From: Erythrobacter sp. 3-20A1M
GTDB taxonomy: Bacteria > Pseudomonadota > Alphaproteobacteria > Sphingomonadales > Sphingomonadaceae
Direction of reading: 5' to 3'
DNA: 64,000 nucleotides
Assembly (NCBI RefSeq): GCF_018636735.1
Contig: NZ_CP045200.1
Location: forward strand, 1,054,001-1,118,000
This document shows positions 28,128 to 44,490 of this stretch, piece by piece. The notes below the pieces were generated by a model. It saw only the letters and a list, made by a program, of their open reading frames with translations. It was not told the DNA's origin and made no database searches. Numbering within the stretch: the stretch's first letter is position 1; each line of letters begins with the position of its first letter. The position numbers and the translations under genes were made by a program.

Positions 28128-29837
28128 ATGACCGACTTTTACGTGGGCGATACGAAACAGCTGGAACAGGCGATTGCAAACTCGTCGCCCGGTGACACGA
28201 TATACCTTGCGCCGGGCAGGTACGATAACGTGTCCATCAAGGACATCCAGCAGGCGGGTCTTCGCATCACCTCGCTCGATCCAAACGATCCGGCAACGAT
28301 TACCAGCATGTCGATCAAGAGCGCGTCTGGCATCGACTTCTCCAACATCGACTTTCACGCCGTCGAGGGTGGGAACAATGTCTTCCTGCTCTACGCGACC
28401 GACGACATAAGCTTCGATCATATCACGGTGCACGGCCCCGCCGGCCTGGGTTCGGCGCAGGAATCCTCAGCATTCATGATTCGCGAAAGCACGAATGTCA
28501 GCGTTACCAATTCCGAATTCTACGATCTCCAGCACGCACTCAAATTGCTAGACGTGACCGGCGCGGTAATCGACGGCAACAGCTTTCACGACATCCGCAC
28601 CGACGGCATCCGGGGCGGCGGCGTCTCCGAAGCCGTCATCTCGAACAACCACTTCACCAATTTCAATCCCGCGGAAAACGACCATCCGGACGGTATCCAG
28701 CTGTGGTCGACCCATCAGGACACCGCCGCGCACGATATCACCATCACCGGCAATGTGGTGGTGCGCGGCGACGGCGACCCGATCCAGGGTATCTTCATCC
28801 GCGATACGCACAAGGAACTGCCGTTCGAGAATGTGACGATCACGGACAATATCGTCCTTGGCGGTCTGTACAACGGCATCGCCATCGGAGGCGTCGTGGG
28901 CGGCACACTGTCGGACAACATCGTCGCGGGATATCCGGACCAGCGTTCCTGGATTCGCGTCAACCGCGAGAAGGACTTCACGATCGTCGATAACGAGGCG
29001 ACCAGATATTCCTTCGACGATCGGGATAGTCCGCATTTTGACCATAACACCCTGTTGCCGGAAGGCGCCGATTACGCCTCGATGGCGGATGCGGTTCCGC
29101 CCGGGTCCAGCGCCGCGGAGTACATTGCCGCGTTCGAGAGCGGGCAAGCTCCGGCTCCCGCGCCCGAACCGACCCCCGAGCCAACTCCTGCGCCGGAACC
29201 CGACAACGCACCGGATCCGGGCTCGATCCACATTCCCACCCCCCAACCCGATACGGACGTGCCGCTTGAGTCCGATGGGAAGGGACCTGCTGGCGAAGGC
29301 ACCGTGGATGTGCCTGTAGATGGCGGTCCGTCGTTCGTGGATATCCATGGGACGGACGCCGGAGAGTCGCTTTTCGGTACCTATGCGAGAACGGCCAATG
29401 ATCGCATCATGGGTGGGGACGGCGACGATTCGCTCTTCGGTCGCGATGGCGACGACTTCCTGATCGGCGGCAACGGCTCGGATCTTCTGCGAGGCGGAGA
29501 GGGTGCCGACACGCTTACCGGGGGGGCGGGCAACGACCGATTCGCCTTCCTCGATGGCGATCTGACGCGCGACGCCTACGATACGATCACGGATTTCACG
29601 ACCGGAGAAGATCGGCTCAATTTCAAGGCGATGGATGCCAACGCCCTGATGTCAGGAAACCAGAACTTCACCTTCATCGGTGCCGCGGCTTTCACTGGCC
29701 GCGCGGGTGAATTGAATTACACCGATCACGCGGACGGTCTGCTCATGGGCGGAGACCTAGACGGCGATGGTGTCGCCGATTTCTTCCTCAAGCTCGAAGG
29801 CGTGCACACGTTGAGCAAGGCCGATATGTGGCTGTGA
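28128..29837 (+). CDS. Secreted RTX protein with right-handed parallel beta-helix domain
   Basis: This 569-residue protein has no Sec signal and ends in features of type I secretion substrates. Residues about 1-330 form a right-handed beta-helix, opening with SSPGDTIYLAPGRYDNVSIK and containing RTDGIRGGGVSEAVISNNHF, DHPDGIQLWSTHQD and PFENVTITDN repeats. A proline-rich linker follows (about residues 341-370), then a cluster of calcium-binding RTX nonapeptides near residue 430 (GGDGDDSLFG, GRDGDDFLIG, GGNGSDLLRG) and a C-terminal region with ITDFTTGEDRLNF that ends in hydrophobic residues. Parallel beta-helices opening this way are common in polysaccharide lyases and epimerases, so an EPS-cutting or EPS-modifying enzyme is likely; the activity is inferred. 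AGGAG precedes the ATG. The type I genes lie just upstream. Confidence 0.88.
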   Translation: MTDFYVGDTKQLEQAIANSSPGDTIYLAPGRYDNVSIKDIQQAGLRITSLDPNDPATITSMSIKSASGIDFSNIDFHAVEGGNNVFLLYATDDISFDHITVHGPAGLGSAQESSAFMIRESTNVSVTNSEFYDLQHALKLLDVTGAVIDGNSFHDIRTDGIRGGGVSEAVISNNHFTNFNPAENDHPDGIQLWSTHQDTAAHDITITGNVVVRGDGDPIQGIFIRDTHKELPFENVTITDNIVLGGLYNGIAIGGVVGGTLSDNIVAGYPDQRSWIRVNREKDFTIVDNEATRYSFDDRDSPHFDHNTLLPEGADYASMADAVPPGSSAAEYIAAFESGQAPAPAPEPTPEPTPAPEPDNAPDPGSIHIPTPQPDTDVPLESDGKGPAGEGTVDVPVDGGPSFVDIHGTDAGESLFGTYARTANDRIMGGDGDDSLFGRDGDDFLIGGNGSDLLRGGEGADTLTGGAGNDRFAFLDGDLTRDAYDTITDFTTGEDRLNFKAMDANALMSGNQNFTFIGAAAFTGRAGELNYTDHADGLLMGGDLDGDGVADFFLKLEGVHTLSKADMWL

Positions 29838-29897: not shown

Positions 29898-31067
29898 TTA
29901 TCGGGACTGCAGCAGCTTTTTAAGAACTGGGCCGCGGTATTCGGCAAAGCCAGGCTTCGTCGCGACCCATTGCTGAATTCGCGCACCGAGGTCGCTAGAC
30001 GTCGGTTCGGTTTCGCGATTCTCGCTCTGTTCGATGCGGCCGACATTATCGCGAATGACATATTTAGACGCGCGATTGCCCGTCATTCGCACATCGCCCG
30101 AATTGCCTATCCGGATCCAGCTCTTTCGATCGGGATAGGCGATAACCTCGTTATCTCTCATCACGCCGCCGCGAACACCTCCCATGGCGATCCCATTATA
30201 GAGACTGCCGATCACCAGATTTCCGGACACCTCGACATTCTCGAACGGCATCTTCTTCTTCGTGTCGCGGATGAAGACCCCTTGCGTCGGCCCGCCCTCG
30301 CCCCGCACCACCAGATTGTCGCGGATGACGATGTTGCGCCCGGGTTCGTCCTGATGCGTCGACCACAGCTGTATCCCGTCGGGATGGTCCTTCGGCGCGG
30401 GATGATAGCCCGTCATCACGTTGTTCTCGATAATCGCATCGCTCACGCCGCCGCCCCGAATCGCGTCGGTCTGAAGATTATCGAATTCATTCTGGGCGAT
30501 GATCAGGTTCTTCAGGTCGAGCATCGCCAATCCGTGCCGGAAGAATGCGAAATTGCTTCGCAGGAACCGGATATTGCTGGAACTGCGCAGCATGACTGCT
30601 GGGCCGATGCTCCGGTTGATTCGGTCGCCTGCCCCGCGAAAGGTCAGATTTCTGAATTCGACGTCCTGACAATTAAGCGCCAGCAAGGCGTAACGCTCTG
30701 AAACACCTTCGTCCGGGATGATCGAAAGGTGGGAAAGTGTCAGGCCGGAAACGTCGCGCAATGACAGGCGCGAGAAAATCGCGGGGTTGGCGGGATCAGC
30801 GGACATAATCGTAACGTTGCCGTTCTTGCGGATGTCTTTCAGCGAAACCGCCGGATAGCGGCCGCTGGAGATACGGATCACGCTTCCCGGCGTCGCACTC
30901 GCGACCGCCCGTTCCAATTGCGCGACCGAGGATACGACCGTTTCGCCCACGCTTTCGGACGCCTGGTCGTTGGCTTGCGCTGCGGGCTGTCCGCAGGCCG
31001 CACTTGCGAGAAGGAGGCCCATCGCGATCGCGATGCGGCGTGTGGTGCTCTTGGCGAAGGTCGGCAT
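29898..31067 (-). CDS. Beta-helix lipoprotein, paralogue of the RTX beta-helix protein
   Basis: The 389-residue product has a lipoprotein-type signal peptide (RRIAIAMGLLLASAAC, Cys 25) and a right-handed beta-helix that parallels the RTX protein across its whole helix domain. Shared segments include TDAIRGGGVSDAIIENN, DHPDGIQLWSTHQDEPG, TQGVFIRDTKKKMPFENV and GSLYNGIAMGGVRGG. It lacks the proline linker and RTX repeats, so it would stay anchored in the cell envelope rather than be exported by type I secretion. It probably acts on the same polysaccharide in the periplasm, as lyase or epimerase. The start at 31067 has GAGGAA upstream. It faces its paralogue tail to tail, which suggests an inverted duplication followed by changed localisation. 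Confidence 0.85.
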   Translation of the reverse strand: MPTFAKSTTRRIAIAMGLLLASAACGQPAAQANDQASESVGETVVSSVAQLERAVASATPGSVIRISSGRYPAVSLKDIRKNGNVTIMSADPANPAIFSRLSLRDVSGLTLSHLSIIPDEGVSERYALLALNCQDVEFRNLTFRGAGDRINRSIGPAVMLRSSSNIRFLRSNFAFFRHGLAMLDLKNLIIAQNEFDNLQTDAIRGGGVSDAIIENNVMTGYHPAPKDHPDGIQLWSTHQDEPGRNIVIRDNLVVRGEGGPTQGVFIRDTKKKMPFENVEVSGNLVIGSLYNGIAMGGVRGGVMRDNEVIAYPDRKSWIRIGNSGDVRMTGNRASKYVIRDNVGRIEQSENRETEPTSSDLGARIQQWVATKPGFAEYRGPVLKKLLQSR

Positions 31068-31182
31068 GGTTGAATTCCTCACTCGCGGCGGGTGCTCGCA
31101 CAGGTGTGAACCGAAGCTGGCGGCAGCGTATATTGCCGCAGAGTGTGGGCATTCCACCCGCGCCCGGCAAGCCCGGTTATCG

Positions 31183-31234: not shown

Positions 31235-32272
31235 TCAGTCGAGCGGGAGTCCGAAGGTCGCACGCAGAACCGCCCGCGCCTGCGCCGGCTGCCGCCGCGC
31301 CACCCGTCGCGCTAGAATTGCAAGGTTCTGCGCAAAATAGAGCGGCAGCAATGCCGGGAAGTGCTTGCGGCAGAAGATCATCTTGCTGCGGATATGATGG
31401 TACTCCGACAGCGGAGACCGCGCGCGGCGCGACAACCGACTGGCGGAACCGGCGGATGCCCCTTCCTTGTGATAGACGACCGCCTGGTCGGCGAAGCCCG
31501 TCTGGTGACGGCCCCGGGCCCGCATCGCCCAGTCGATTTCCTCGTAATAGAGGAAGAAGCGCTCTTCGAGCAGTCCCACATCCTCCACAAAGTCGCGTGT
31601 GACCGCTAGCGAGGCACCGCATACGAAGTCGCTCTGGGCGATAACGGCATCGCGATCGAACGGGCCGTCGATCGGCGACCCACCCCCAATGCCAGCCGCA
31701 GCGCCGGTCCATTTGTCGAAGCGCATTCCGTTCAGCAACTGATGGCGATCGCGGTCGTGATACAGCCGGATCGGGGTGCCGAGCATGGCATGTTGGGGGG
31801 CGCTGACGAATGCTTCCCGCAGCTTCCTAACAGTGTCGGCCTCGACGATGGTATCGTTGTTCAACAGCCAGAGAATGTCGATTTCGGGATTGTTGAGCGC
31901 CAGTTCGAGCCCGCGATTGTTCCCCCCCGCGAAGCCGAGATTACCTCCGGTTTCGATCACCGTGAGGGGCTTCCGGACGCCTTCCTGCAACTCGTCCGGC
32001 CCCAGCACTTCATACGCGATCGGTCGCTCGATTCGATCGTAGGCCTCGTTCGCATGCGCAGGGTTGGCGACCGGAACGCTCCCCTCCCCGTCAGCCCATG
32101 CCGTTATCCTGTCCACCGACCCATCGCCCGAGGCATTGTCGGCGACGATCACGTAAGGGATGGTGTCACCGGAAAACAGAGAGGCCAGACATTCGATCGT
32201 GTCGTGCGCCCCCCGATAGTTGACCAGTATGACCGCCATTCCGGGGTCACGGGTGCTCGATACCATCACCAT
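31235..32272 (-). CDS. Glycosyltransferase family 2 (rhamnosyltransferase-like)
   Basis: The 345-residue GT-A enzyme begins with MAVILVNYRGAHDTIECL and has the nucleotide-sugar segment VIVADNASGDGS, then GGNLGFAGGNNRG and the metal motif ILWLLNNDTIVE. This layout, with NYR at the start and NND as the metal motif, is typical of WbbL-type GT2 enzymes, many of which transfer rhamnose. Given the rfb genes nearby, rhamnosyl transfer to the lipid-linked EPS repeat is a reasonable inference. A hydrophobic-basic C-terminal tail may touch the membrane. The ATG at 32272 is followed by a second ATG two codons later. Confidence 0.87.
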   Translation of the reverse strand: MVMVSSTRDPGMAVILVNYRGAHDTIECLASLFSGDTIPYVIVADNASGDGSVDRITAWADGEGSVPVANPAHANEAYDRIERPIAYEVLGPDELQEGVRKPLTVIETGGNLGFAGGNNRGLELALNNPEIDILWLLNNDTIVEADTVRKLREAFVSAPQHAMLGTPIRLYHDRDRHQLLNGMRFDKWTGAAAGIGGGSPIDGPFDRDAVIAQSDFVCGASLAVTRDFVEDVGLLEERFFLYYEEIDWAMRARGRHQTGFADQAVVYHKEGASAGSASRLSRRARSPLSEYHHIRSKMIFCRKHFPALLPLYFAQNLAILARRVARRQPAQARAVLRATFGLPLD

Positions 32273-32356
32273 TATCGCAAACGCCTTTCCTACAGATAAC
32301 CATATAGGTTACGCCCCGCGTCGTTGCTCATATGCACTAACCGCAGGAGGTTTTTG

Positions 32357-32620
32357 ATGACAGACCGTTTTGGAAATTATGGTGATTCGGTAACCGCCCC
32401 GGCGCGACAGGCTTTCGCGATCACGCCAAGTGACGAAGAAGCGCTTCCACTCTTGCCCAAGGCGTTGCTGATCGGACAGCCTGGCACGGTCGTGTTGCGC
32501 GCCACCGACAGCGATCACGACGTGGCCGTCACGGCCCAGGCGGGGCAATTGTTGCCCATCCGGGCCAGTCATGTTCGCGCCAACGGCACCACTGCCGGAA
32601 CCATCGTGGGGCTCGCGTGA
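32357..32620 (+). CDS. Small protein resembling phage/GTA head-spike base (RCAP_rcc01079 family)
   Basis: The 87-residue product starts at ATG 32357, behind a very strong GCAGGAGG ribosome site. It has no signal peptide. Its layout (TAPARQAFAITPSDEEAL, then LPKALLIGQPGTVVLRAT, then LLPIRASHVRANGTTAGT and a VGLA end) fits my memory of spike base proteins of the Rhodobacter capsulatus rcc01079 (GhsA) family, short beta-rich proteins seen next to spike-fibre genes in phages and gene transfer agents. The call rests on remembered family pattern, not on a search. The next gene starts within its stop codon (GTGA), so the two are translationally coupled. Such proteins are unexpected inside an EPS operon. 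Confidence 0.6.
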   Translation: MTDRFGNYGDSVTAPARQAFAITPSDEEALPLLPKALLIGQPGTVVLRATDSDHDVAVTAQAGQLLPIRASHVRANGTTAGTIVGLA

Positions 32621-34080
32621 GCATGGTGCTGGACTGCAGCTTGAACACGGCGGCCCTCCATAGACCTGGAGGTGGGCCGCCCCCGCCCCCCAAGCCCGAT
32701 CGTCCCGATTTCTCGAGCACCGGCCTACTGCCGGCGTTTCTCTACCATCCCGACAGCGAGGAAACGACCAAATCGGGCGACCGCATAACCCGGGTCGTCG
32801 CCGCGCCCGGTTCCCCCGATCTTCTTACGACCGGAACCGGCCCGGTAGAGAGAATCGACGGTGCCGGTACGAAGTGCTGGCGGTTCGAGGACGGGGCAAG
32901 CCTGGACCTGCCTGACAGCTTCACCGTGACGCCCAGATCCTTCACCCTATTCATTGTCGGACGGCACCACGAACGCACCAATAGCTGCAGCTTCTTCTCC
33001 ACGAAGTATCAGAGCGACGGGGTTACTCGCGCGAATACGCTGGGCGCGCTGTTCGCAACCACCGGATCGGGCGGCGCGGCTCCATGGCTTCGCTGTACCA
33101 ACAGGGCAGGATATAATGCGACCACAAACGCCGCCCATATGGCCGCGGGATCGCAACTGGCATGCTTCGGCGTGGCTTCCCGGACTGGCGGTAATGGGGG
33201 CCTGCTCTATTATATGAACGGAGTCCGGGGCGCGGATTCCGCCTCAGGGTCCACCCATACCGATTGCAAAGGGGGGCGCTTCGGCGGGTATGCCTATAAT
33301 GATTCGAACCTGTCGGGGTTCGACCTCTATTGCGCCGTCCTCTTCACCGGAGAACTGAGCACGGAACAGGCGGACAGCGTCTCAAGGGTGCTGATGGATT
33401 TCTATTCCTTAACGCCTCTCGTCAGAAATCTCATTCTCGAAGGCGACAGCATTACCGCCGGGGGCTCGGAGATACCGACCGGCGACAACACGGCCATGGC
33501 GCTTACCGAACCGGGGATGGGATTGGTTGCTGGCAACGTGCGGGTCATCAACATGGCGATCGCCGGAGCCATGACGAGCGATGCGGTAAACCGTCGCGAC
33601 ACCGCCAATGGGTGGCCCTCTGCCAAGCTGGGCGACCGGGTGGGCGACAATATCCTGGCATTCCAGGTCGGGCGTAACGACACCTCTTCCGGCGGACTTT
33701 CGCCCGAACAGACGTATCAGGCCATCCTTTCCTATTGGAATGCGAACTCAAACGGGGTGGTCGCTCGCGGCTGGCGCCCATACCAGATGGCGAATATCGC
33801 GTGCGATGCGGGAGAGACGTCGGTCGACCTGCATGACCGCATTCTCGACAGCTTCTCTACCGATGTCTTGGGTGGAACCGCTATCGATCTGCAACGCATC
33901 CGCGATAGCGGCGGCGGGCACGGCGATGATTTTGCGCCCTTCGCCTTCGACGCGCAAAACGCCACCTACTTCCAAACCGTCGGCGGCGTACTCGATACCA
34001 CCCACCCGAGTATCTACGGCACGAAGGTCATGGCGAGCGGTGGCGACACGCCGCAGTACGGCTACGCGGCGATCGCGTAG
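32617..34080 (+). CDS. SGNH/GDSL hydrolase with N-terminal lectin-like region, probable spike-fibre protein
   Basis: This 487-residue protein has no signal peptide. It begins with a short variable segment and a polyproline stretch (PGGGPPPPPKPDRPDFSSTG), then a beta-rich region of about 220 residues that resembles LamG/concanavalin-like modules (DGASLDLPDSFTVTPRSFTL). The C-terminal half is an SGNH esterase: block I LILEGDSITAGG, block III VGRNDT and block V DTTHPSIYG supply Ser, Asn and Asp-His. SGNH enzymes often remove acetyl groups from polysaccharides. Coupled to the spike-base-like gene, it is plausibly a receptor-binding spike that deacetylates surface polysaccharide; a non-phage role in EPS processing is the alternative. 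GTG 32617 and ATG 32623 are both possible starts. Confidence 0.75.
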   Translation: MSMVLDCSLNTAALHRPGGGPPPPPKPDRPDFSSTGLLPAFLYHPDSEETTKSGDRITRVVAAPGSPDLLTTGTGPVERIDGAGTKCWRFEDGASLDLPDSFTVTPRSFTLFIVGRHHERTNSCSFFSTKYQSDGVTRANTLGALFATTGSGGAAPWLRCTNRAGYNATTNAAHMAAGSQLACFGVASRTGGNGGLLYYMNGVRGADSASGSTHTDCKGGRFGGYAYNDSNLSGFDLYCAVLFTGELSTEQADSVSRVLMDFYSLTPLVRNLILEGDSITAGGSEIPTGDNTAMALTEPGMGLVAGNVRVINMAIAGAMTSDAVNRRDTANGWPSAKLGDRVGDNILAFQVGRNDTSSGGLSPEQTYQAILSYWNANSNGVVARGWRPYQMANIACDAGETSVDLHDRILDSFSTDVLGGTAIDLQRIRDSGGGHGDDFAPFAFDAQNATYFQTVGGVLDTTHPSIYGTKVMASGGDTPQYGYAAIA

Positions 34081-34086
34081 GCGCGT

Positions 34087-35133
34087 TCACGCCTTCTCTT
34101 CTATCCACTCCCGGAGATAGGCGATCAGATCGCTCGGGTCCGTGGTCGCGCGCAAGGGTTCGCGGCCACGCACCCGCTCGAGCGCCTGCGCGAACTCCTC
34201 AGGGGTATCGGCAGTTTCCAGCAGCCCGCGCTGGCGGAAGGTTTCCGTGATTTCCGCCTGGTGGTTGTCGTAATGCTCGCCCTGCTCGAACCGGCGCGGG
34301 ACGGCGATCACGCGGCACCCGGCCCGCAACGCGGTGATGAGCGAACCCGTACCGCCATGGCAGACAACCAGGTCGGCCTTGTCCAGCAGGCTCCTGACCT
34401 CGTCGAAGGGCAGCGTCTCGACACAGCGCAAATTCTCATCGTCGCTCTCGCAGTCCGCACCCTTCCCGACCTGCAGCACGATGCGTTCGGGGATCTGCCC
34501 CTTGGCTCGTGCGCCCCGGACGAGATCGACCAGGCGGGGAAAGGGCAGGGTCGCACCCACCGTCGCGAACATCAGCGGTTCCTTGGCAGGGCGCGGCGTA
34601 TCGATCATCTTGAACGGATCGAAGGCGAGCGCGCCCTTCCACTTCTCGGCAGATCGCTTCGACTGGGCGATGCGCAGATCGGCCAGCGGTGCGGCGAGCC
34701 GCGCGAAGGCCGATGGTTCCTCGAACCGGGCAAAAGAATCGACCAGGATCGTGCGCGCGCCCAACAGCTTGGCCCACATCATGACGAAGATCATCGATCC
34801 CGCTCCGGTGGTGATCACGACATCGGGCCGCGTTCGCCGGATGATGGAAAACGAAGTACCGATGCTACGCAGCGCGCCCATCAGCATCGCCAGCGGATTG
34901 CCCAGCTTCGCCTGGCCGAGCGCGACATGGGGCACGAAATAGCATTCGCGATCTGCCGCGATCGATTCTCCAAGCGCGGTATCCTCGGTCACGAAGAAGC
35001 TGCGATAGTCGCGCCATAACGGCTCGAGATCCAGCAGCTGGCGCACATGGCCGCCACCCGAAGCGGCCAAGCACAGTCTGAGACTGCTGCCTACGGGCTC
35101 TTCGCCGGATGCACGTGAAATCTGCGATCGCAT
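34087..35133 (-). CDS. Glycosyltransferase, fused Alg14/Alg13-like (PssDE/GelK type)
   Basis: The 348-residue protein combines what are two subunits in many bacteria and eukaryotes. The N-terminal half (LCLAASGGGHVRQLLDLEPL, VVITTGAGSMIFVMMWAKLL) matches the Alg14/PssD membrane-associated part. The C-terminal half (FATVGATLPFPRLVDLV, KADLVVCHGGTGSLITALRA, VIAVPRRFEQGEHYDNHQ) matches the Alg13/PssE donor-binding part. In sphingans the fused GelK/SpsK enzyme adds glucuronic acid to glucosyl-diphospho-undecaprenol, and that is the most likely role. It should act at the cytoplasmic face of the inner membrane. It is convergent with the SGNH gene (six bases apart) and divergent from the EpsD-like gene. 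Confidence 0.85.
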   Translation of the reverse strand: MRSQISRASGEEPVGSSLRLCLAASGGGHVRQLLDLEPLWRDYRSFFVTEDTALGESIAADRECYFVPHVALGQAKLGNPLAMLMGALRSIGTSFSIIRRTRPDVVITTGAGSMIFVMMWAKLLGARTILVDSFARFEEPSAFARLAAPLADLRIAQSKRSAEKWKGALAFDPFKMIDTPRPAKEPLMFATVGATLPFPRLVDLVRGARAKGQIPERIVLQVGKGADCESDDENLRCVETLPFDEVRSLLDKADLVVCHGGTGSLITALRAGCRVIAVPRRFEQGEHYDNHQAEITETFRQRGLLETADTPEEFAQALERVRGREPLRATTDPSDLIAYLREWIEEKA

Positions 35134-35281
35134 CTTGACCCCTGTCCCGCTCCGAACCGCTTAGGCAAAAAGCTGTTCATTCTCCGGCCAATCTTGCTAG
35201 GGAAGCGGCTCTTTACTCGTGCGGTCCAGCTTCCATCGCAACCTTCGCAATGCGGCGCAATACAGGCTGTTGGAGAATTAT

Positions 35282-36178
35282 ATGCGTTTCGTCCGACTAA
35301 CCCCTGCAATCATGATACTGGGCCTGCTCAGCGCCTGCGGATCCGACGCCGAACCGGAGGGGCAGGTGGCCGCGACGATGGACGGGCAAGAGATCACCCA
35401 GACGCAGGTGAATGCCGAAATGGCCGGATTCGGCCAAGTCGATCCCAGCCAGCGGCAGGCAGCGGCGAACCAGGCACTCGACCAGATCCTCGGCCGGGTC
35501 GCACTGGCCGACGAAGCGCGGGAGCGCGGGCTCGACAAGACGCCGGCTGGTGCGATCGAGTTGCAAAAGGCGCAGGACGTCGCGCTCATCAACATGCTGC
35601 GGCAGGATATCCGGGACAAGGTTCCCAAACCCTCCGCGGACGAGGCGCAGCAGTTCGTGTCGGACAATCCGGGCATGTTCCAGAACCGCTTCGTGACGAT
35701 CGTGGAGCAGCTGGTCGTGCCGCAGATTTCACCCGACCTTGTGAAGAAGATGGAGCCTATCGACGATCTGCCCGGCATCAAGGCGTTGCTCGACTCTAAC
35801 GGAGTGACCTATCGTACGACCATGGGGGCGGTGGATTCCGTCACTCTGGCGCCGGAGGTGGTCAAGGCGATCTCCGGCATGGGCGTCGGCGCGGTCTATA
35901 TCATGCCGCAGGGGAACGGCGTGCGGATCAACGCCATTCGGTCGCGTCAGACGATTCCGATCACCGGTGCCGATGCGACGAAGCTCGCCAGCGAGATGGT
36001 GTTCGAACAACGCGTCAACGGCCAGACGGCGAACGCGTTCGGGAAGGCCGTCGAAAGTCGCAAAGGCGACGTGAAGTACGCGAAGGAATTCCAGCCGCCC
36101 AAGACCAAGCCGGGCGCGACGTCCGCATCTGCGGCAAACGCTCCCGCCGGCGCTGCCGGTTCTACCAACACCCCCTGA
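35282..36178 (+). CDS. EpsD-like peptidyl-prolyl isomerase lipoprotein
   Basis: The 298-residue lipoprotein has a short signal peptide ending in the lipobox LSAC (Cys near residue 18). It resembles SurA/PrsA-type proteins of the EpsD family found in exosortase-EPS loci: an N-terminal helical chaperone region (GQEITQTQVNAEMAGFG, ALDQILGRVALADEARERG) and a degenerate parvulin domain. The C-terminal tail is proline-alanine-rich. Its role is probably folding or assembly of outer-membrane EPS export parts. GGAG lies seven bases before the ATG. It is the first gene of a long rightward operon continuing into the pyruvyl transferase gene. Confidence 0.8.
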   Translation: MRFVRLTPAIMILGLLSACGSDAEPEGQVAATMDGQEITQTQVNAEMAGFGQVDPSQRQAAANQALDQILGRVALADEARERGLDKTPAGAIELQKAQDVALINMLRQDIRDKVPKPSADEAQQFVSDNPGMFQNRFVTIVEQLVVPQISPDLVKKMEPIDDLPGIKALLDSNGVTYRTTMGAVDSVTLAPEVVKAISGMGVGAVYIMPQGNGVRINAIRSRQTIPITGADATKLASEMVFEQRVNGQTANAFGKAVESRKGDVKYAKEFQPPKTKPGATSASAANAPAGAAGSTNTP

Positions 36179-36219
36179 TCGCTGACCATCGTACAATCGC
36201 CAAACCAGTCGGAGATCCG

Positions 36220-37404
36220 ATGAGCCAGGATAACACGACCATCCGGGTTGGACTGCTGTGGCATTCCCTCCGGGCGGGCAATCTCGGGATCGGGGCGTTG
36301 ACCCTCGCCAACATGGCCATCGTGCAAGACGTGGCGCGGGATTTGGGGGTGACGGTCCGCTTCGTGGTCGTTTCGATGCGCGAAGCGTTCACCGAATCGA
36401 TCGCTCCCGGTGTCGAGCAGTTCGAGATCGATACGCGCACCCTGTTGAAGCCGGACGGCTATGCGCGCCTGCTGGATCGGCTCGACTGCGTCATCGACAT
36501 CGGGGCCGGGGACAGCTTTGCCGACATATACGGCGCGAAGCGGTTCGCTTTCCTGTGGCTGTCGAAATTCATCGCCTTGCGGAAAAGAAAGCCCCTCATC
36601 TTCGCCCCGCAGACGATCGGCCCCTTCACCAAGCCTGCGTACAAGCCCTTCGCTAGCAAGGTCATGCGCGATGCCGCGGCAGTGGTGGCCAGAGACCCGA
36701 CCTCGCTGCAGGCGATCAACGACATCGCGCCGGGCGCCGACGCCCATCTGGCCGTCGACGTCGCCTTCATGCTGCCGTTCGAGGATCGCTCGCACGAGCG
36801 GAGACCGGACAAGGTCCGGGTCGGTATCAACGCCTCGGGCCTGCTGTGCGAACAGGCCGAAAGCGGTCAGAATCGGTTCGGGCTTTCCTATGATTACCTT
36901 GCACTGCAACGCCGGCTTATCGCGCACTGGCAAGAGGCCGACGGGGTGGAAGTCCACCTGATCACCCACGCCAACAGCGCCGGGGACAAGCGGGACGACG
37001 ACGGCCACCGTGCCGATCTCTTGGCGAAGGAGTTCCCGGGGACCGTCCGCGTGCCGAATTTCGCTGGGCCGAGCGAGGCGAAGAGTTACATATCCGGCCT
37101 CGACTTTCTGGTGGCCGGACGCATGCATGCCTGCATTGGCGCATTCTCTTCGCTGACGCCGGTCGTTCCCATCGCCTATAGTCGCAAGTTCAGCGGGTTG
37201 TTCGATCTTTTGGGCTATCCCTGGTATACCCCGGTGACCGGGATAGACGAAGACGCAGCGTTCGCTTTCGTGCTCGACGCCTTTGCCCGGCGCGACACGT
37301 TGCGAGCGGACGAACAGGCCGGGCTCGCGAAGGTCGACGCGCTGATGGACGGCTACAGGGATGTGCTGGGCCGCGAGTTCGCGGCACTGGTGCCTGCCGC
37401 CTGA
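36220..37404 (+). CDS. Polysaccharide pyruvyl transferase family protein
   Basis: The 394-residue product belongs to the family that transfers pyruvate from phosphoenolpyruvate to sugar hydroxyls as ketals (CsaB/WcaK-like). Supporting motifs are GLLWHSLRAGNLGIGALTLA near the N-terminus, IDIGAGDSFADIYG, IFAPQTIGPFTKP and the C-terminal VAGRMHACIGAFSSLTPVV. Pyruvate ketals give EPS negative charge. A GGAG site precedes the ATG, and its stop overlaps the next gene start (TGATG). The following F420-hydrogenase-beta-like gene is a frequent neighbour of this family in capsule loci. Confidence 0.88.
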   Translation: MSQDNTTIRVGLLWHSLRAGNLGIGALTLANMAIVQDVARDLGVTVRFVVVSMREAFTESIAPGVEQFEIDTRTLLKPDGYARLLDRLDCVIDIGAGDSFADIYGAKRFAFLWLSKFIALRKRKPLIFAPQTIGPFTKPAYKPFASKVMRDAAAVVARDPTSLQAINDIAPGADAHLAVDVAFMLPFEDRSHERRPDKVRVGINASGLLCEQAESGQNRFGLSYDYLALQRRLIAHWQEADGVEVHLITHANSAGDKRDDDGHRADLLAKEFPGTVRVPNFAGPSEAKSYISGLDFLVAGRMHACIGAFSSLTPVVPIAYSRKFSGLFDLLGYPWYTPVTGIDEDAAFAFVLDAFARRDTLRADEQAGLAKVDALMDGYRDVLGREFAALVPAA

Positions 37405-38630
37405 TGAAGACGTCCCCGGCCTTGCAACGGGTGGAGAAGGGTTCGCTCTGTTCCGGCTGCGGCTTGTGCGCGGGGGTGAGCGATGGGGCCATTGCCATGA
37501 TCACGCGGGCCCCCGGTTACAGCCGGCCGTTGCAGACCGCCCCAATCCCGGACAAGACCGAAGCGATCATTCGCGAATGTTGTCCAGGTCTTGAAATCGC
37601 CCGCTGGGACGAACCGATCTTCGCCGACACGACCGTCGAGCCATCCTGGGGGCCCTATCGCCGCTGCCTGACCGGCTTCGCCACCGATCCCGAGGTTCGC
37701 CACCGCGGCTCATCCGGAGGTGCAATATCGGCGCTTGCCATTCACGCACTGAAGAGCGGACTGGTCGAACGCGTGCTTCACGTCGCACCCGATCCCGCAC
37801 GCCCGACCCGCAACCTTATCACCATCTCGGATACGCCTGAAGACGTGCTGGCGGGGTCGGGATCGCGCTACGCCGCATCGTCACCACTGGAACGGATCGA
37901 GGATCATTTGTCCGGCGGACGGCCGACCGTTTTCATCGGCAAGCCGTGCGATGTTTCCGCGCTGCGACGTCTCGCCAGGAAGGACGAGCGCGTCGATCAC
38001 GTTTTTCCGATCAAGCTGTCCTTCTTTTGCGGTGGTTTGCCAAGCCATGCCGGGGCCGACCGCATCACCCGGGCCATGGGCCTCGATCCAGAGCGATTGG
38101 TCCATTTCCGTTATCGCGGCGAAGGTTGGCCCGGTCTGACGGTTGCGCGCGACGATCAGGGCAATAGCGGGAAAATGCTGTACGAGGATAGCTGGGGTGG
38201 GCATCTCTCGAAAGAGGTCCAATTCCGCTGCAAAATTTGCCCCGATGCGGTGGGTGGGACCGCCGATATCGCTTGTGCCGACGCATGGTACGGCGGCGAG
38301 AGCGGCTACCCGCAGTTCGAAGAGGCGGACGGGCGCAGCCTCATCATGAGCCGAACGGCTGTCGGGGATGCGTTGCTGGACGCGGTCGTCCAGGCTGGTG
38401 CGATGGAAGTTTCTTCGCTCCCGGTTGGCGAGATCGATTTGATGCAGCCGTCACAAGCCCGTCGCAAGCGGCGGGTCGCGGCGCGTACCTTCGCCGCCCG
38501 GGCACTGGCGCGACCTGTACCGGCTATGGATGGGCTGTTGGTGGGCAAAGCGGCCACCCGAGAAAAGATCGCAGCGCAGCTCAAGGAAGCGATCGGCACT
38601 GCGCGTCGTATCGTAATGAAGCGCACTTGA
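37404..38630 (+). CDS. Coenzyme F420 hydrogenase/dehydrogenase beta-subunit family protein
   Basis: The 408-residue protein has an N-terminal ferredoxin-like cluster CSGCGLC (Cys 16, 19, 22), the FrhB/FdhB N-domain segment RHRGSSGGAISALAIHAL, and the FrhB C-domain segment VFIGKPCDVSALRRLARK followed by FFCGGLPSH. A further pair, FRCKICPD, and CADAWYGG complete likely iron-sulfur ligands. F420 itself is not expected in this group, so the family probably uses flavin here. Members occur in polysaccharide loci beside pyruvyl transferases, as here, but the reaction is unknown; a redox step on a sugar nucleotide or lipid-linked intermediate is possible. Start overlaps the previous stop. Confidence 0.85.
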   Translation: MKTSPALQRVEKGSLCSGCGLCAGVSDGAIAMITRAPGYSRPLQTAPIPDKTEAIIRECCPGLEIARWDEPIFADTTVEPSWGPYRRCLTGFATDPEVRHRGSSGGAISALAIHALKSGLVERVLHVAPDPARPTRNLITISDTPEDVLAGSGSRYAASSPLERIEDHLSGGRPTVFIGKPCDVSALRRLARKDERVDHVFPIKLSFFCGGLPSHAGADRITRAMGLDPERLVHFRYRGEGWPGLTVARDDQGNSGKMLYEDSWGGHLSKEVQFRCKICPDAVGGTADIACADAWYGGESGYPQFEEADGRSLIMSRTAVGDALLDAVVQAGAMEVSSLPVGEIDLMQPSQARRKRRVAARTFAARALARPVPAMDGLLVGKAATREKIAAQLKEAIGTARRIVMKRT

Positions 38631-38735
38631 AACGCACCTAAATAGAACAGGCTGCGCGGAGTTCTTCCCAAGGCGAAATGGTTCCTATAAGAGCCGCACC
38701 GTTGAGATTTCAGGATTAACGCGAGGGACGTGCGA

Positions 38736-39959
38736 GTGAACAGACCGATCCTGAGAGCGACGGTGGCAACGCTTGCACTGTCCGTTGCAACCGCCGCGCA
38801 TGCACAGAGCGTCAAGGACGATATGCTCTCGCTCGGCTTCGAGCTCCAGCTTCGGCACGACAGCAATGTCGCCAATTCGAGCGACGAACGGACCGCCCAG
38901 CGCGGCCTGGTGAAGGCAGAGCAGGTCATAAGCCCGGCGGCGACGATCGCGCTGCGCCGCGCTTTCGGGCCACATTCGGTGCAGCTGAGCGCCTATGCCG
39001 GGTACGATTTCCATACGCGCAACACACGGCTCGACAGCGAGCGAATTTCGTTGGACGCGACCGGCGATATCAAGGCCAGCCTCTGCCGGGTCAGCCCGAC
39101 GATTTCCTATTCGCGCGCGCAGAGCGAGCTGGGATATCAGTTGCTCGACCCCGATCCCACGCTGGTGGTGGACAACACGCAAGCTGAACAGACCTACTCG
39201 GCGAACATTTCCTGCGGCCCGCCCGTTGGTCTGCGGGCGCAGGGCGGGTTTGGATACAGCCGCGGCGACAACAGCAATCCGCGGCGCCAGACATCGGATT
39301 ATGAGACCTACAACTATCGCACCGGGGTGGGGTACACCCAGCCCTCGATCGGCGAGATATCCCTGTATGTCTCGAAGCAGGATACGACGTTCCCCAACCG
39401 CCTGTTCAGCAATGGCGAGCAGGATGGATATTCGGTCCGTCGCTACGGCGCTTCGTTCGCGCGCGACATCGGGGCCCGCTTGTCGGGTTCGTTAGGATAT
39501 TATTACATCGACGTGGATTCCCGGGCGCCGGTCAGCCGCGACTTCCAGGGTTCGGGTTACAATCTCGATCTGAGCCTGGTCGCAACGCCCCGCACACGGC
39601 TGCGCTTCAACATCAACAAGGACGTTCAGACTGCGCTAAACAACGATGCGCTTTATACGCGCACCGGGTCCTATGGCGTGGCCGCGGATTACGCCGTCAA
39701 TGAAAGGCTGACCATCGATGCGGGCTACCGGTTCGAAAATCGGCGCTATGTGTACAGCGGTTTCCTGGCCCCGGTCGCCGACCGGGCGCTGCTGAACGAC
39801 AAGTTCCAGACGGTCACGGCCAATGCGACCTATCGGCCAAGTCAGAAGTTGAGTTTCACGCTGTTCGGAGGATACGAAAATCGTAACGCGAATGGCACCT
39901 TTTTCGATTACGACGGATATTTCGTCGGTTTGACCGGTCGCATCGCGCTGGTCCGCTGA
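38736..39959 (+). CDS. Outer-membrane beta-barrel protein of the EPS export system
   Basis: The ~407-residue product has a signal peptide (RATVATLALSVATAAHAQS) and then alternating strands rich in aromatic and polar residues ending in Arg, for example VQLSAYAGYDFHTRNTRLDS and YDGYFVGLTGRIALVR. This is the pattern of a 14-18-stranded outer-membrane barrel related to the BBP2/EpsL-type proteins in exosortase-EPS clusters. It probably forms or supports the EPS exit pore next to the Wza-like protein. The start is GTG; 38736 fits the AGGGAC ribosome site better than the in-frame GTG at 38730. Downstream gene spacing is 15 bases. Confidence 0.8.
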   Translation: MNRPILRATVATLALSVATAAHAQSVKDDMLSLGFELQLRHDSNVANSSDERTAQRGLVKAEQVISPAATIALRRAFGPHSVQLSAYAGYDFHTRNTRLDSERISLDATGDIKASLCRVSPTISYSRAQSELGYQLLDPDPTLVVDNTQAEQTYSANISCGPPVGLRAQGGFGYSRGDNSNPRRQTSDYETYNYRTGVGYTQPSIGEISLYVSKQDTTFPNRLFSNGEQDGYSVRRYGASFARDIGARLSGSLGYYYIDVDSRAPVSRDFQGSGYNLDLSLVATPRTRLRFNINKDVQTALNNDALYTRTGSYGVAADYAVNERLTIDAGYRFENRRYVYSGFLAPVADRALLNDKFQTVTANATYRPSQKLSFTLFGGYENRNANGTFFDYDGYFVGLTGRIALVR

Positions 39960-39974
39960 GCAAGGAGCATTTAC

Positions 39975-40817
39975 GTGATTGCTAGCATCTTTCGCGCCTT
40001 TGCGTCGTGTGCGCTGCTGCTGACGGCTGTCGGCGCGGCCACTTCGCCGCTCGCCGCGCAGGACCAGCCTGCCCCCGCCACGAGTGGTGCAGTACCTCTG
40101 CCGGACGGCTATGTCCTCGGCGAAGGCGATGCGATCCAGGTCTCGATTCCGGGGCGAGCCGATTTCAACACGCAAGTCCAGATCCAGCCCGACGGCACGG
40201 TACAACTCCCCTATGTGCGCAGCATCCGCGCCACCGGACTCTCACCCCAGGGCCTGCAGGATGCGATCGCGGCGAAGCTCATGGCCGGCGGATATTTTAC
40301 CAATCCGATCGTCAATGTCGTGGTGACCGGATATTCCAGCAGCTACGTGACGGTGCTTGGCCAGGTGAATCAGCCCGGCCTCTTGCCCATCAACCGCAAT
40401 TTCCGCCTGTCCGAGATCATCGCCCGCGCCGGCGGGATCGGGCCCAACGGATCGGAAACGGTCTCACTGACCCGACAGAACGGCGAACAGCTGTCCTTCA
40501 CGGTCGAGCAGATGGCTACCGGCGGTGCGGCGATGGACCCCTATGTCGAGTCCGGCGACAAGATCTATGTCGCCCGGGTCGAGGAGGGCGAGCGTCCGGT
40601 CTTCTACATCTACGGTCAGGTAAATGCCCCCGGCAGCTACCCCGTCGTGGAAGGCATGTCGCTGCGCATGGCACTGGCACGCGGTGGCGGTCTGACCTCG
40701 CTCGGATCGGAGAAGAAAGTCGACGTCTATCGCAACGGCGTCGAACTAGATCACACCAAGCTCGACGACATCGTCCAGGCGGGCGACGTCGTCAAAGTAG
40801 GCGAGCGGTTCTTCTGA
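39975..40817 (+). CDS. Wza/GelD-type polysaccharide export protein
   Basis: The 280-residue periplasmic protein has a signal peptide ending near ASPLAAQ, a Poly_export domain (YVLGEGDAIQVSIPGRADF) and two SLBB repeats (SSYVTVLGQVNQPGLLPI and VFYIYGQVNAPGSYPVVE). It lacks a lipobox and a long C-terminal amphipathic helix, so it is a short OPX protein that may depend on the barrel protein encoded just upstream. The start is GTG with AAGGAG nine bases upstream. It precedes the chain-length protein gene, the standard wza-wzz-wzb order. Confidence 0.92.
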   Translation: MIASIFRAFASCALLLTAVGAATSPLAAQDQPAPATSGAVPLPDGYVLGEGDAIQVSIPGRADFNTQVQIQPDGTVQLPYVRSIRATGLSPQGLQDAIAAKLMAGGYFTNPIVNVVVTGYSSSYVTVLGQVNQPGLLPINRNFRLSEIIARAGGIGPNGSETVSLTRQNGEQLSFTVEQMATGGAAMDPYVESGDKIYVARVEEGERPVFYIYGQVNAPGSYPVVEGMSLRMALARGGGLTSLGSEKKVDVYRNGVELDHTKLDDIVQAGDVVKVGERFF

Positions 40818-40844
40818 CCGCTCCAGATTGAACGGATTTCCTGC

Positions 40845-42167
40845 ATGAGCGTCGTCCAATTTTTCCGCATCCTCTGGTCGAAGCGTCTTCTGATCGCCTT
40901 CACGACCTTCGGGGCCCTGTTCGCTGCGCTGTTCGTGGCATGGATGATGCCGCCGCGCTACGTCGCGACCTCGCGCGTCATGCTGGACATCGTGAAGCCC
41001 GACCCCGTCACCGGTGAAGTGATCGCCTCTCAATGGGCGCGCGCCTTCGTGAAGACGCAGATCGAACTGATCAGCGATTACCGCGTCGCCGGAATAGTCG
41101 CCGACAAGCTGGGGTGGAGCGATTCGCCCATCCTGGCAGCCGAGTACAAGGAAAGCGGCGCGAGTGAGGATATGGATTTCCGCCGATGGCTGGCCCAGCG
41201 CGTCATCAATCGGACTTCGGCGCGACTGGTCGAAGGCAGCAACATCCTGGAAATCCAGAATTCCAGCACGTCGCCCGAACCGGCGGCGCGAATGGCCGAT
41301 CTCGTGCGCGACGCCTATGTCGAACAGACGCTGGCGTTCCGGCGCGAAGCCGCCCGCCGCAATGCCGAGTGGTTCGAGCAGCAGACGCAGAAGGTGGGCG
41401 AGGAACTCGCGGCGGCCCAGGCGGCAAAGAACGATTTCGAGAAGGCCAATGGCGTCATCCTGACCGACGATCTCGTCGATACCGACATTGCCCGTCTTGC
41501 CGCACTAGCGGGCTCCGCCCCTGCCGGCGAGACGCAGATGATGACCGGCGGAACCGTTGCGCCCTCGTCCGCGCAACTGTCGCAGATCGACGCAGCGATC
41601 GCCGCCGCCTCGCAGACGCTTGGCCCCAACCACCCAGACCTTCAGCAATTGCGCCAGCAGCGCACCGCGCTGGCCGCTGCGGTGGCCCGCGAAACGCAGG
41701 CCGCGCCCAAGGTCGTCACCAGCGGGCGTTCGCTCGATTCGCTCTATAACGAGCAGCAGGCGAAGGTGCTGCGCAAGGCGGGCGCGGCCGATCAGGCCCG
41801 CCGCCTGGCGACGAACGTCGCGGTCCTGCGCGACCAGTACCAGAAGACGGCGGCCCGGGCGGCCGAGCTCGAGCAGGAAGCGCAGTCGACCGAATCCGGG
41901 CTGACTCTTCTCGGCGATGCGGTCGTGCCCCAGTCGCGCGAATTTCCTAAATATCCGCTCATCGTCGTGGGTGCGCTCGCAGCCGGCTTCGCATTCGGCG
42001 TCCTGCTGTCGCTGCTGATCGAACTGCTGCGCCGCAAGGTGCGCGGGGTCGAGGAACTGCAATTGATCGACGCCCCCATTCTGGGCGCGATGGGCCGGGA
42101 GCCGGAAGAAGACGAACGACGCGGTCCGCGCCTGTTGACCTTCCAGCCCCGCCTCGCCGCACCCTAG
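40845..42167 (+). CDS. EPS chain-length/co-polymerase protein, GumC/EpsF type (first of two)
   Basis: The 440-residue inner-membrane protein has a Wzz domain at its N-terminus (helix LIAFTTFGALFAALFVAWMM), a long periplasmic coiled-coil region (residues about 170-350, with ARRNAEWFEQQTQKVGEELA) and a second helix near residue 375 (LIVVGALAAGFAFGVLLSL). This is the GumC/EpsF type that sets polymer length and contacts the Wza-like channel. It is followed by a P-loop protein in place of a fused kinase domain. It shares domain order with a second chain-length protein at 54.3 kb but the two sequences differ clearly. Confidence 0.92.
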   Translation: MSVVQFFRILWSKRLLIAFTTFGALFAALFVAWMMPPRYVATSRVMLDIVKPDPVTGEVIASQWARAFVKTQIELISDYRVAGIVADKLGWSDSPILAAEYKESGASEDMDFRRWLAQRVINRTSARLVEGSNILEIQNSSTSPEPAARMADLVRDAYVEQTLAFRREAARRNAEWFEQQTQKVGEELAAAQAAKNDFEKANGVILTDDLVDTDIARLAALAGSAPAGETQMMTGGTVAPSSAQLSQIDAAIAAASQTLGPNHPDLQQLRQQRTALAAAVARETQAAPKVVTSGRSLDSLYNEQQAKVLRKAGAADQARRLATNVAVLRDQYQKTAARAAELEQEAQSTESGLTLLGDAVVPQSREFPKYPLIVVGALAAGFAFGVLLSLLIELLRRKVRGVEELQLIDAPILGAMGREPEEDERRGPRLLTFQPRLAAP

Positions 42168-42180
42168 GTCATATACGAGC

Positions 42181-42903
42181 ATGAACATGGAAAATACCAA
42201 CATGGGTGAGCTGGTGGACGAGCGTTCCGGCGCGGCCGCGATACCTGTCGATCAGGACGTAGCGCCGGGGCACGAGTTGTCCGATCGGCTCGTCATGCTG
42301 TCGCGCACCGGCTCGACACAGGCCGAATCGATCTCGATGCTGCATTCGCAGCTCCTGTCGCGCCATGTGCACGACTATCGGCGCGGCATCGCGTTCTGTT
42401 CGGCGAGCGACGGCACCGGCTGTTCTTACATGGCGGCGAACATCGCATGCGCTATGGCGATGTCCGGCATCCGCACGCTGCTGCTCGACGCCAATTTGCG
42501 CGATCCGGAGATCGACGGGTATTTTACCCCCCGCGAGGACCGCGGCGGCCTACTAGACTGCCTGGGGACCGATCAGCGCGACCCCGGTTCCGTGGTCCAT
42601 CGTGAAGTGATCCCCAACCTGTCGATCATCTACAGCGGCGGCAGTTCGCGGGAGTCGGGCCTACTTTCCTCGACCCGGTTCGCCGATATCGTCGGCGCTT
42701 GCATGCGCGATTACGAACTCACGATCATCGACACGCCGCCCGCCAACAAGAGCTCCGACGCGCTGCGGATCGCCAACGTCCTGCGCTATGCCCTGATCGT
42801 GGCGCGCAAGGACCGCAGCTATGTGAAGGATATTCGCAAGCTGGTGGACGATCTTAGGGTCAATCGCGCGGAAGTGCTCGGCACCTATCTCAATGATTTC
42901 TGA
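42181..42903 (+). CDS. CpsD/BY-kinase-like P-loop protein with altered Walker A
   Basis: The 240-residue cytoplasmic protein has the fold and position of the ATPase partner of GumC-type chain-length proteins. However, its P-loop reads SASDGTGCSYMAANIA, in which the lysine expected after the last glycine is a cysteine. Walker A' (LLLDANLRDPEID) and Walker B (LTIIDTPP) are kept. There is no tyrosine-rich tail; the protein ends VLGTYLNDF. It is thus probably a non-kinase or weakly active regulator rather than an autokinase. Its stop lies inside the exosortase start region (11-base overlap). Confidence 0.85.
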   Translation: MNMENTNMGELVDERSGAAAIPVDQDVAPGHELSDRLVMLSRTGSTQAESISMLHSQLLSRHVHDYRRGIAFCSASDGTGCSYMAANIACAMAMSGIRTLLLDANLRDPEIDGYFTPREDRGGLLDCLGTDQRDPGSVVHREVIPNLSIIYSGGSSRESGLLSSTRFADIVGACMRDYELTIIDTPPANKSSDALRIANVLRYALIVARKDRSYVKDIRKLVDDLRVNRAEVLGTYLNDF

Positions 42904-43798
42904 CACGATCGACCGGCCGGCGCGGGGGGGTGTCGGCAGGGCGGCTCTGTTTGTCCGCCAGCACGCGATCATCATCGTCGCGGTACTGCTGTTCCTGATC
43001 CCGACGTTCTATCGCATGGCGACTCAGGCGTGGTCGACCGAGGCCGGTGCCCATGCTCCCATCGTCCTTGCGACCGGCGTGTGGCTCTTGAGCCAGGGCG
43101 ATTTCAGCACCGCTTCCTCTCCAGGAAAGGATCACCGCACCACGGCCGGGTTCTGGTTCTTCATCGCGCTGGAAGTAATTGCGCTGGCCGCCTACACCTT
43201 CGCGCGCGCCTATGATTTTCTGAGCGTCGAGGCGGCGGCGGCCTATGGTGCGGTGCTGGCGATCGCGGCGGCTTTCATCGGCCTCGCGCCGTTGCGGCGA
43301 AACGCCTTTCCCCTGTTCTACCTGTGCTTTCTCATTCCCCTGCCGGGATGGGTCATCGACAGAACGACCGCGCCCCTGCAGCAATTCATCTCATACTCGG
43401 CCACCAGCCTGCTGCAGATGTTCGATTATCCCGTCATGCGCAGCGGGGTGACGATCTACATCGCGCAATACCAGCTGCTGGTTGAGCAGGCCTGTTCGGG
43501 AATGAACTCGATCATCGGCCTGATCTCGGTAACGCTGTTCTATATCTACATTCTCCACCGGTCGAGCTGGCGCTACGCCGCGCTGCTCGTGCTCCTGATC
43601 CTGCCGATCGCGATCTTCGCGAACTTCATTCGCGTGGTGGTGCTGATCCTCCTCACCTATCATTACGGCGACGCGGTTGCGCAGGGCTTCCTCCACAACA
43701 CCGCCGGCATCGCGCTGTTCGCGATGGCGCTGTTCATGATGATCGCGATCGACGCGCTGTTACAGCGCACGCTGTTCCGCAAAGGGCCCCCGGCATGA
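42893..43798 (+). CDS. Exosortase, probably XrtV class
   Basis: The 301-residue membrane protein is an exosortase, a transpeptidase-like enzyme that cuts PEP-CTERM proteins at the membrane. Eight or so helices are visible and the catalytic triad is readable: Cys in VEQACSGMNSIIGL (near residue 200), Arg in ANFIRVVVL (near 246) and His in LHNTAGIALFAM (near 267). The class is suggested by neighbours: an EpsI gene directly after, a small XrtV-accessory-like gene at 47.35 kb and a PEP-x-x-W substrate at 50.3 kb. A class A assignment cannot be excluded. It overlaps the upstream P-loop gene and the downstream epsI gene. Confidence 0.9.
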   Translation: MISDTIDRPARGGVGRAALFVRQHAIIIVAVLLFLIPTFYRMATQAWSTEAGAHAPIVLATGVWLLSQGDFSTASSPGKDHRTTAGFWFFIALEVIALAAYTFARAYDFLSVEAAAAYGAVLAIAAAFIGLAPLRRNAFPLFYLCFLIPLPGWVIDRTTAPLQQFISYSATSLLQMFDYPVMRSGVTIYIAQYQLLVEQACSGMNSIIGLISVTLFYIYILHRSSWRYAALLVLLILPIAIFANFIRVVVLILLTYHYGDAVAQGFLHNTAGIALFAMALFMMIAIDALLQRTLFRKGPPA

Positions 43799-44490
43799 GC
43801 ATGGCGCGCAGAGAGATGCTGGCCGGCGGGCTGCTGTTCGGGGCGCTGGGCATGGCGACCTGGCTGACCCCGCGCACCCGCATGAACCTGCTCGGTCGGC
43901 AGGACCTGGAAGCTCTTGTGCCGGAGAACTTCGGTGCCTGGAAATCAAGCTACGACCCCAGCCTTGTCGTTCCGATCAAGGAAGGAAGCCTGACCGACAC
44001 GCTGTACGACGAGCTGTTGACCCGGCGTTACGTCAATGCGGCCACCGGCGCGCAGATTTACCTCATGATCGCCTATGGGGGGACGCAGACCGACGCGTTG
44101 CAGCTCCACCGTCCGGAAACCTGCTACCCCGCCGTGGGCATGCGCATCGTGGAGCGCGAACGCTTCACCCTGCCTGTCGCCGGGCGCGAGATACCGTCCG
44201 TCGCCCTGGTGGCGCAGGCCCCCGGGCGGACGGAGGACATCGTCTATTGGACGCGAATGGGGCCGCGCTTCCCTCAGACCGCTGGGGCGCAACGGTCGGA
44301 CAAGCTGCAACTGGCGATGAAGGGGATCATCCCCGACGGTGTCCTGATCCGCGCGTCGCTCATCCGCGACGACGGCGAGACGCATTTCGAGGAGCTCGGC
44401 GCTTTCCTGAGCGGGCTTGTCTCGGCCGTGCCCCCCTCCAAGCGCGCAGTCCTGATCGGGCCTCGCCCTGTGGAGCCTTCGGCAGGCTGA
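43795..44490 (+). CDS. epsI: Exosortase-associated protein EpsI
   Basis: The 231-residue protein has one N-terminal membrane helix (MLAGGLLFGALGMATWL) and a periplasmic domain with the family motif LQLHRPETCYPAVGM. EpsI proteins occur directly after, or fused to, exosortases and are needed with them for EPS export or PEP-CTERM processing; their exact activity is unknown. The ATG overlaps the exosortase stop. The last residues (RPVEPSAG) lie beyond the conserved region. The exosortase, EpsI and the small gene that follows form one transcript unit by spacing. Confidence 0.9.
   Translation: MSMARREMLAGGLLFGALGMATWLTPRTRMNLLGRQDLEALVPENFGAWKSSYDPSLVVPIKEGSLTDTLYDELLTRRYVNAATGAQIYLMIAYGGTQTDALQLHRPETCYPAVGMRIVERERFTLPVAGREIPSVALVAQAPGRTEDIVYWTRMGPRFPQTAGAQRSDKLQLAMKGIIPDGVLIRASLIRDDGETHFEELGAFLSGLVSAVPPSKRAVLIGPRPVEPSAG

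Follow-up and report, generated by a model that had tools for sequence, protein, structure and literature searches.

The closest described systems to the locus reported here are the head spikes of RcGTA, the gene transfer agent (GTA) of Rhodobacter capsulatus; GTAs are virus-like particles that deliver DNA. RcGTA spikes bind the capsule (PMC10218006), fibre residues IALGLGLGL dock on a base pentamer (PMC7296036), and the spike genes are expressed late with the GTA via GafA/CtrA (PMC9638019). The spike genes rcc01079-80 directly precede the capsule genes rcc01081-86, and both lie in a single 22-kb cosmid insert spanning rcc01067-rcc01088 (PMC10218006). RcGTA has further ectopically encoded parts that bind receptors or act on polysaccharide, namely the TspA tailspike and the tail fibre rcc00171. 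These resemble the present pair in that respect but are tail-borne, and TspA has a beta-helix domain and belongs to a conserved module beside lysS (PMC13420450). Across the accessible parts of the GTA literature (PMC10218006, PMC7296036, PMC9836097, PMC10883770, PMC6209664, PMC13420450, PMC8601537, PMC9638019, PMC6363796), spikes are described as separately encoded or are unmentioned. We found there no comment on spike–capsule linkage as a general pattern, although Westbye 2016, Brimacombe 2013 and Hynes 2016 may contain one.

Here we describe a gene pair in a 64,000-nucleotide stretch of the Erythrobacter sp. 3-20A1M genome (hereafter the window) that is very probably the spike of an RcGTA-type element. 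The first gene (32357..32620, plus strand; ATG start with AGGAGG directly 5') encodes an 87-residue protein of the RCAP_Rcc01079 (GhsA) head-spike base family. A profile search against NCBIfam matched it to NF048002.1 over positions 1-85 of 85 (E 1.3e-27); at 95.8 bits against a curated cut-off of 28 bits, the match is more than chance. The protein also matches phrog_12296, labelled tail fiber protein (7.5e-18, PHROG), and over residues 3-84 the solved RcGTA spike base, 6tb9_E3 (E 1.2e-10, PDB). It is the only spike base in the complete 3.1-Mb genome. The first-pass annotation had proposed this GhsA identity; the NCBIfam profile and the RcGTA structure now supply the similarity to spike base families on which that assignment depended.

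The second gene (32617..34080, plus strand) starts with GTG, overlaps the base gene by four bases (GTGA) and encodes a 487-residue protein in the GhsB position. Its role as fibre is assigned by gene position and coupling. Neither protein has a signal-peptide-like N-terminus: the maximum hydropathy of 12-residue windows near the N-terminus is 1.63 for the 87-residue and 1.26 for the 487-residue protein, against 1.9-2.5 for five apparently exported neighbours. The pair is translationally coupled and without apparent signal peptides, as originally described.

The fibre begins with a short candidate docking peptide and a Gly/Pro linker, followed by a probable lectin-like beta sandwich (residues ~40-245) and an SGNH-type domain (~270-480). 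The latter contains the expected motifs in order: the Ser block GDS at 276-278, the oxyanion Gly/Asn block GRND at 352-355 and the Asp–His block DTTH at 460-463. Its Pfam Lipase_GDSL (PF00657) match (1.1e-4) scores 22.9 bits, just below the cut-off of 23.6, and we therefore term the domain SGNH-like only. The fibre had been proposed to carry an SGNH esterase; the motif blocks are intact, but the profile score falls short of the family threshold, and esterase (deacetylation) action is putative. The likeness of the pair to GhsA/GhsB extends to base family, base–fibre order, position away from the GTA cluster and location beside capsule genes. The fibre, in contrast, is longer than GhsB (487 versus 325 residues), has the SGNH-type domain, and found no NCBIfam, PDB or meaningful PHROG family match in the libraries searched.

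Five proteins are homologous to the fibre (31-37% identity). All are encoded in polysaccharide loci, directly 3' of a spike base, in Sphingobium, Sphingomonas and an unclassified member of the Sphingomonadales. All six fibres have GDSIT and the final TH unchanged, while GRND varies in two and one lacks the Asp that precedes the His. A six-fibre profile weakly matches GDSL-family structures (3rjt, 0.0025). In a low-confidence AlphaFold model (pLDDT 52), a lectin-like sandwich seems to precede an alpha/beta domain. Comparison of the model with the PDB retrieved lectin-fold domains from many unrelated proteins, with low TM-scores, which we take to indicate a jelly-roll fold and no more. Phage records, viral contigs and the other sampled family genomes yielded no fibre relatives, and a Loktanella plasmid gave one 31% match.

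Many fibre N-termini resemble the RcGTA docking peptide IALGLGLGL. Of 91 fibre genes, 74 begin on the final base of the stop codon of the base gene, and 63 of the fibres show an alternating hydrophobic–small pattern within their first 15 residues, against 63 of 2064 other genes (3%). The N-terminus of the window fibre, MSMVLDCSLNTAAL, fits the alternating GFGFG pattern only loosely, and the fibres of two near relatives (L049 and L052) also deviate from it.

A GTA that could carry such a spike is encoded in the same genome. The first-pass annotation had proposed scanning the genome for a GTA capsid cluster, and we found a full RcGTA-type cluster at contig positions ~1,480,055 to 1,495,050, about 0.39 Mb beyond the spike pair. 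It comprises genes for a TerS-like protein, TerL, portal, protease, capsid, connector, major tail, tape measure, distal tail (Rcc01695 family), hub, peptidase and a short megatron, of which TerS, protease, tape measure and peptidase were named by inspection and gene order. The families TIGR01537, TIGR01554, TIGR02215, TIGR02217, TIGR02218 and the N-terminus of NF048004 match collinearly (locus L032, 4056-18477), and the capsid protein matches RcGTA Rcc01687 at 3.7e-83. The megatron is short (762 aa; L032 4056-6344) and scores below cut-off, and a GTA TIM-barrel domain (GTA_TIM) was not found in the genome. By analogy with the RcGTA structure, a base pentamer would be bound at the capsid vertex. 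In a sample of 250 genomes of the family, a GTA hub is present in 34 of 39 genomes with an above-cut-off spike base and in 134 of 211 without (p 0.002). Two genomes with spikes in EPS loci (G042, locus L053; G080, locus L052) have ectopic spike pairs and no TIGR02218 hub match; their spikes may be relics or parts of a diverged GTA.

A palindromic box links the spike to the GTA. The sequence TAACCATATAGGTTA (32297..32311) lies 45 bp 5' of the spike ATG; it was first noticed by eye and then sought at the GTA, where a copy, TAACCGATACGGTTA, lies upstream of the terminase genes. An exact pattern search of the whole 3.1-Mb genome found TAACC-N5-GGTTA exactly twice, at the spike promoter and at the GTA terminase promoter. 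We propose that this GTA box is an operator common to the two promoters, with GafA, by analogy with R. capsulatus, as the candidate binding protein (PMC6363796, PMC9638019). The accessible parts of the GTA regulation literature hold no description of a TAACC-N5-GGTTA operator that we could find.

Other genomes show the same association. Many ectopic spike bases have a similar palindrome 46-104 bp upstream, whereas bases within GTA clusters do not. We trained a matrix on 33 spike-upstream sites, a set containing no GTA promoters; in 17 of 19 genomes its best match within 20 kb lay upstream of TerL, usually near -600. For 22 loci with the spike inside the GTA, the box of the GTA promoter was the top-ranked match in 18. 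A box above the 99% null level precedes 34 of 83 ectopic spikes and none of 36 in-GTA spikes, so a spike outside the GTA operon tends to carry a GTA box of its own, although a clear box is absent at more than half of the ectopic spikes. We counted 16 exact copies of the 12-mer TAACCTATTTGG across 26 genomes, the majority of them at GTA or spike promoters. Among 300 control matrices with permuted columns, 6 attained the real count (mean 2.6 of 20); we take these 6 to be permutations that hardly alter the motif. In-cluster spike pairs of Sphingomonas and Hephaestia (L139, L151, L156, L182) share the base family and have the same box at the GTA promoter, but differ in lying inside the GTA operon, lacking a separate spike box and having mostly shorter fibres. 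None of 13 in-cluster fibres has a Pfam domain match, whereas at least 7 of 30 EPS-class fibres have an SGNH domain.

These data bear on the idea that the pair is a remnant of a GTA-like siphophage prophage whose spike genes survived by chance. Related bases do occur in the phages RcapNL, RcWaterboi and Pben1. A prophage remnant, however, accounts poorly for an operator common to the resident GTA, for the box upstream of many other ectopic copies, or for the mutual exclusion of ectopic and in-GTA copies. Moreover, the flanking ORFs are glycosyltransferase and export genes, and no other phage genes were recognised. We judge this origin unlikely, to the point of being very improbable.

The box itself lies within an 84-base gap (32273-32356) between the spike pair and a divergent glycosyltransferase gene whose ATG is 24 bases away, so that one regulator could act on both. 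Perfect palindromes TAACCTATTTGGTTA also occur away from GTA and spike genes, at L212 (G014 C1:1091604) and L227 (G014 C4:26723); these are possible further members of a GTA regulon. At L221 (G077 C3:31341), a box-like site lies about 290 bases 5' of a gene resembling those for LuxR-type autoinducer-binding proteins.

The spike pair is embedded in a polysaccharide locus. To its left is the divergent GT2 glycosyltransferase gene (31235..32272, minus strand; PF00535, 4.1e-7), and to its right, convergent with the fibre gene, a GT28/Alg14-like glycosyltransferase gene (34087..35133, minus strand; PF04101, 1.6e-16). Beyond these, on the plus strand (35219..44490), are polysaccharide modification and export genes for SurA-like, pyruvyl transferase, FrhB-like, OMP, Wza-like, Wzc-like, kinase, exosortase and EpsI-like proteins; those at 35219-38630 were identified by Pfam and the remaining ORFs to 44490 named by inspection. 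The position between glycosyltransferase and export genes is therefore as the first-pass annotation gave it, and it recurs elsewhere, as described below. By analogy with R. capsulatus, the polysaccharide made by this locus would be the receptor of the spike.

The surroundings contain several other features. A type I secretion system lies at 24824-27887, in which the HlyD-like membrane fusion gene (26536-27887) is split into two overlapping ORFs of 177 and 273 aa, possibly by a frameshift or a sequencing error. Two related beta-helix proteins are encoded facing each other at 27987-29837 and 29898-31157; they resemble polysaccharide epimerases or lyases and would belong to the same locus, and one has RTX-like repeats and adjoins the type I secretion system. 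Another Wzc-like gene (54327-55565) is 30% identical to the first and has flippase and glycosyltransferase genes close by, suggesting that the window contains a second polysaccharide system.

Such a setting, together with the SGNH motifs and the type I secretion system at 24824-27887, would suit an EPS tailoring enzyme, in which the 487-residue protein would be an esterase exported to act in the EPS pathway, with the 87-residue protein as its partner. This reading does not explain why the partner belongs to a structural virion family or why homologues of the fibre always follow a spike base. The putative esterase also lacks a signal-peptide-like N-terminus, and no RTX-like repeats were seen in its sequence. 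We judge it unlikely as well, and if anything slightly less credible than a prophage origin.

We next consider how widely spikes share this placement with the window pair. We collected 20-kb neighbourhoods from 250 evenly drawn genomes of the family, two genus mates, 38 random regions and 80 named loci, and scored them with profiles of GTA genes and of the polysaccharide genes found in the window. The contig scan for bases used a closer alignment, the initial base alignment having been too diverse. After removal of duplicates and remote members, 110 strong members remained. Of these, 59 lie in polysaccharide loci and 33 in GTA clusters, with no member assigned to both; the other 18 have different surroundings. 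Only 2 of 38 random regions scored as polysaccharide loci (Fisher 4.7e-14 against the spikes). The even draw alone gave 19 in polysaccharide loci, 10 in GTA clusters and 3 elsewhere; counts from the named scan are not estimates of prevalence because that scan was seeded with conserved stretches. Outside the Sphingomonadales, spikes lie in EPS loci in Frigidibacter, Defluviimonas, other Rhodobacterales and two genomes of other families, and other genomes there have in-GTA or unclear contexts. Placement in polysaccharide loci is recurrent across many alphaproteobacteria. The first-pass annotation had seen no description of the linkage of spike and receptor genes, but rcc01079-80 adjoin rcc01081-86, and the linkage thus has a precedent in R. 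capsulatus (PMC10218006). What is new is the recurrent placement and the shared box.

A base tree splits into a mostly in-GTA group and a mostly ectopic group, with 4 changes between the two placements, many forks being unresolved. The tree placed the window base apart from those of its genus mates, which raised the possibility of independent base replacement; we dropped this because a single clade with the genus mates was not rejected by an AU test (p 0.66). Within the genus (10 genomes), three have a spike base.

Fibre type covaries with the surrounding polysaccharide genes. Among pairs of 56 EPS-class loci, stratified by base identity, flanking-gene sharing was 0.156 for related against 0.020 for unrelated fibres where base identity was below 50%, and 0.127 against 0.038 at 50-60%; the covariation may be due to host kinship. 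All five loci with related fibres (L114, L125, L137, L164, L183) have a GT28 homologue (58-65% identity) and in part also share pyruvyl transferase, FrhB, Wza and Wzc genes. L049 and L052, which have the most similar bases, share none of these genes, and the window's GT28 and Wzc genes occur in no other of the 10 genomes of the genus. Two observations tell against a strict lock-and-key coupling: loci such as L180 have EPS genes in common with the window without the fibre, and some Sphingobium loci have unrelated fibres in nearly identical EPS backbones. The matched variation of spike and EPS genes anticipated by the first-pass annotation is therefore found in part: fibre type tracks flanking genes, but some Sphingobium backbones carry different fibres and kinship may confound the comparison.

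The pair could also be a GTA spike whose placement has no functional meaning, through insertion into a variable, insertion-prone region, passive linkage or a single frozen ancestral event. With only 4 changes on the base tree, the spike may have entered an EPS locus once, long ago, and stayed there by descent; EPS loci are highly diverse within the genus, and 18 ectopic spikes lie outside any recognised EPS locus. A frozen event, however, would not explain how the pair stays with EPS genes amid turnover of both EPS genes and fibres, nor the fibre–EPS covariation within base-identity strata. Spikes of Rhodobacterales (L153, L161, L168, L172) and of R. capsulatus itself (PMC10218006) are likewise in EPS loci. 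We regard a meaningless placement as unlikely, though a serious contender.

Combining the NF048002 base, the coupled fibre, the resident GTA and the shared box, we read the pair as the head spike of the resident GTA. In the mechanism that we propose, a GafA-like GTA regulator would bind the box and switch on spike and GTA together. Following the RcGTA structure, base pentamers would sit on capsid vertices, the fibre N-terminus would dock into the base, and the docked fibre would display its lectin-like and SGNH-type domains. The spikes could then hold the particle on the polysaccharide of the surrounding locus or trim acyl groups from it, as RcGTA spikes bind capsule. Encoded inside the locus that makes its receptor, the spike could be inherited or replaced with it as one block, so that a lineage changing its coat would keep GTA delivery to its kin. 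We consider it likely that the pair is the head spike of the cell's own GTA, is switched on with that GTA, acts on the local polysaccharide and keeps delivery among kin.

Since the same placement is found across many alphaproteobacteria, key and lock may be inherited together. Our more tentative proposal, which we hold as a possibility of slightly less than even weight, is that the spike genes make up, with the polysaccharide genes, a co-inherited recognition cassette under a GTA operator; swapping the coat locus would at the same time redirect the particle to new kin, in a greenbeard-like manner. Two open questions about GTAs are how they confine DNA delivery to relatives and why their genes are dispersed. 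Searching for the palindromic box is a simple route to listing the GTA regulon of sphingomonads, for which we found no described regulator site in the accessible literature. A receptor-binding protein encoded in its receptor's own locus, in Sphingomonadales and Rhodobacterales, provides a direct genetic test of kin-restricted transfer.
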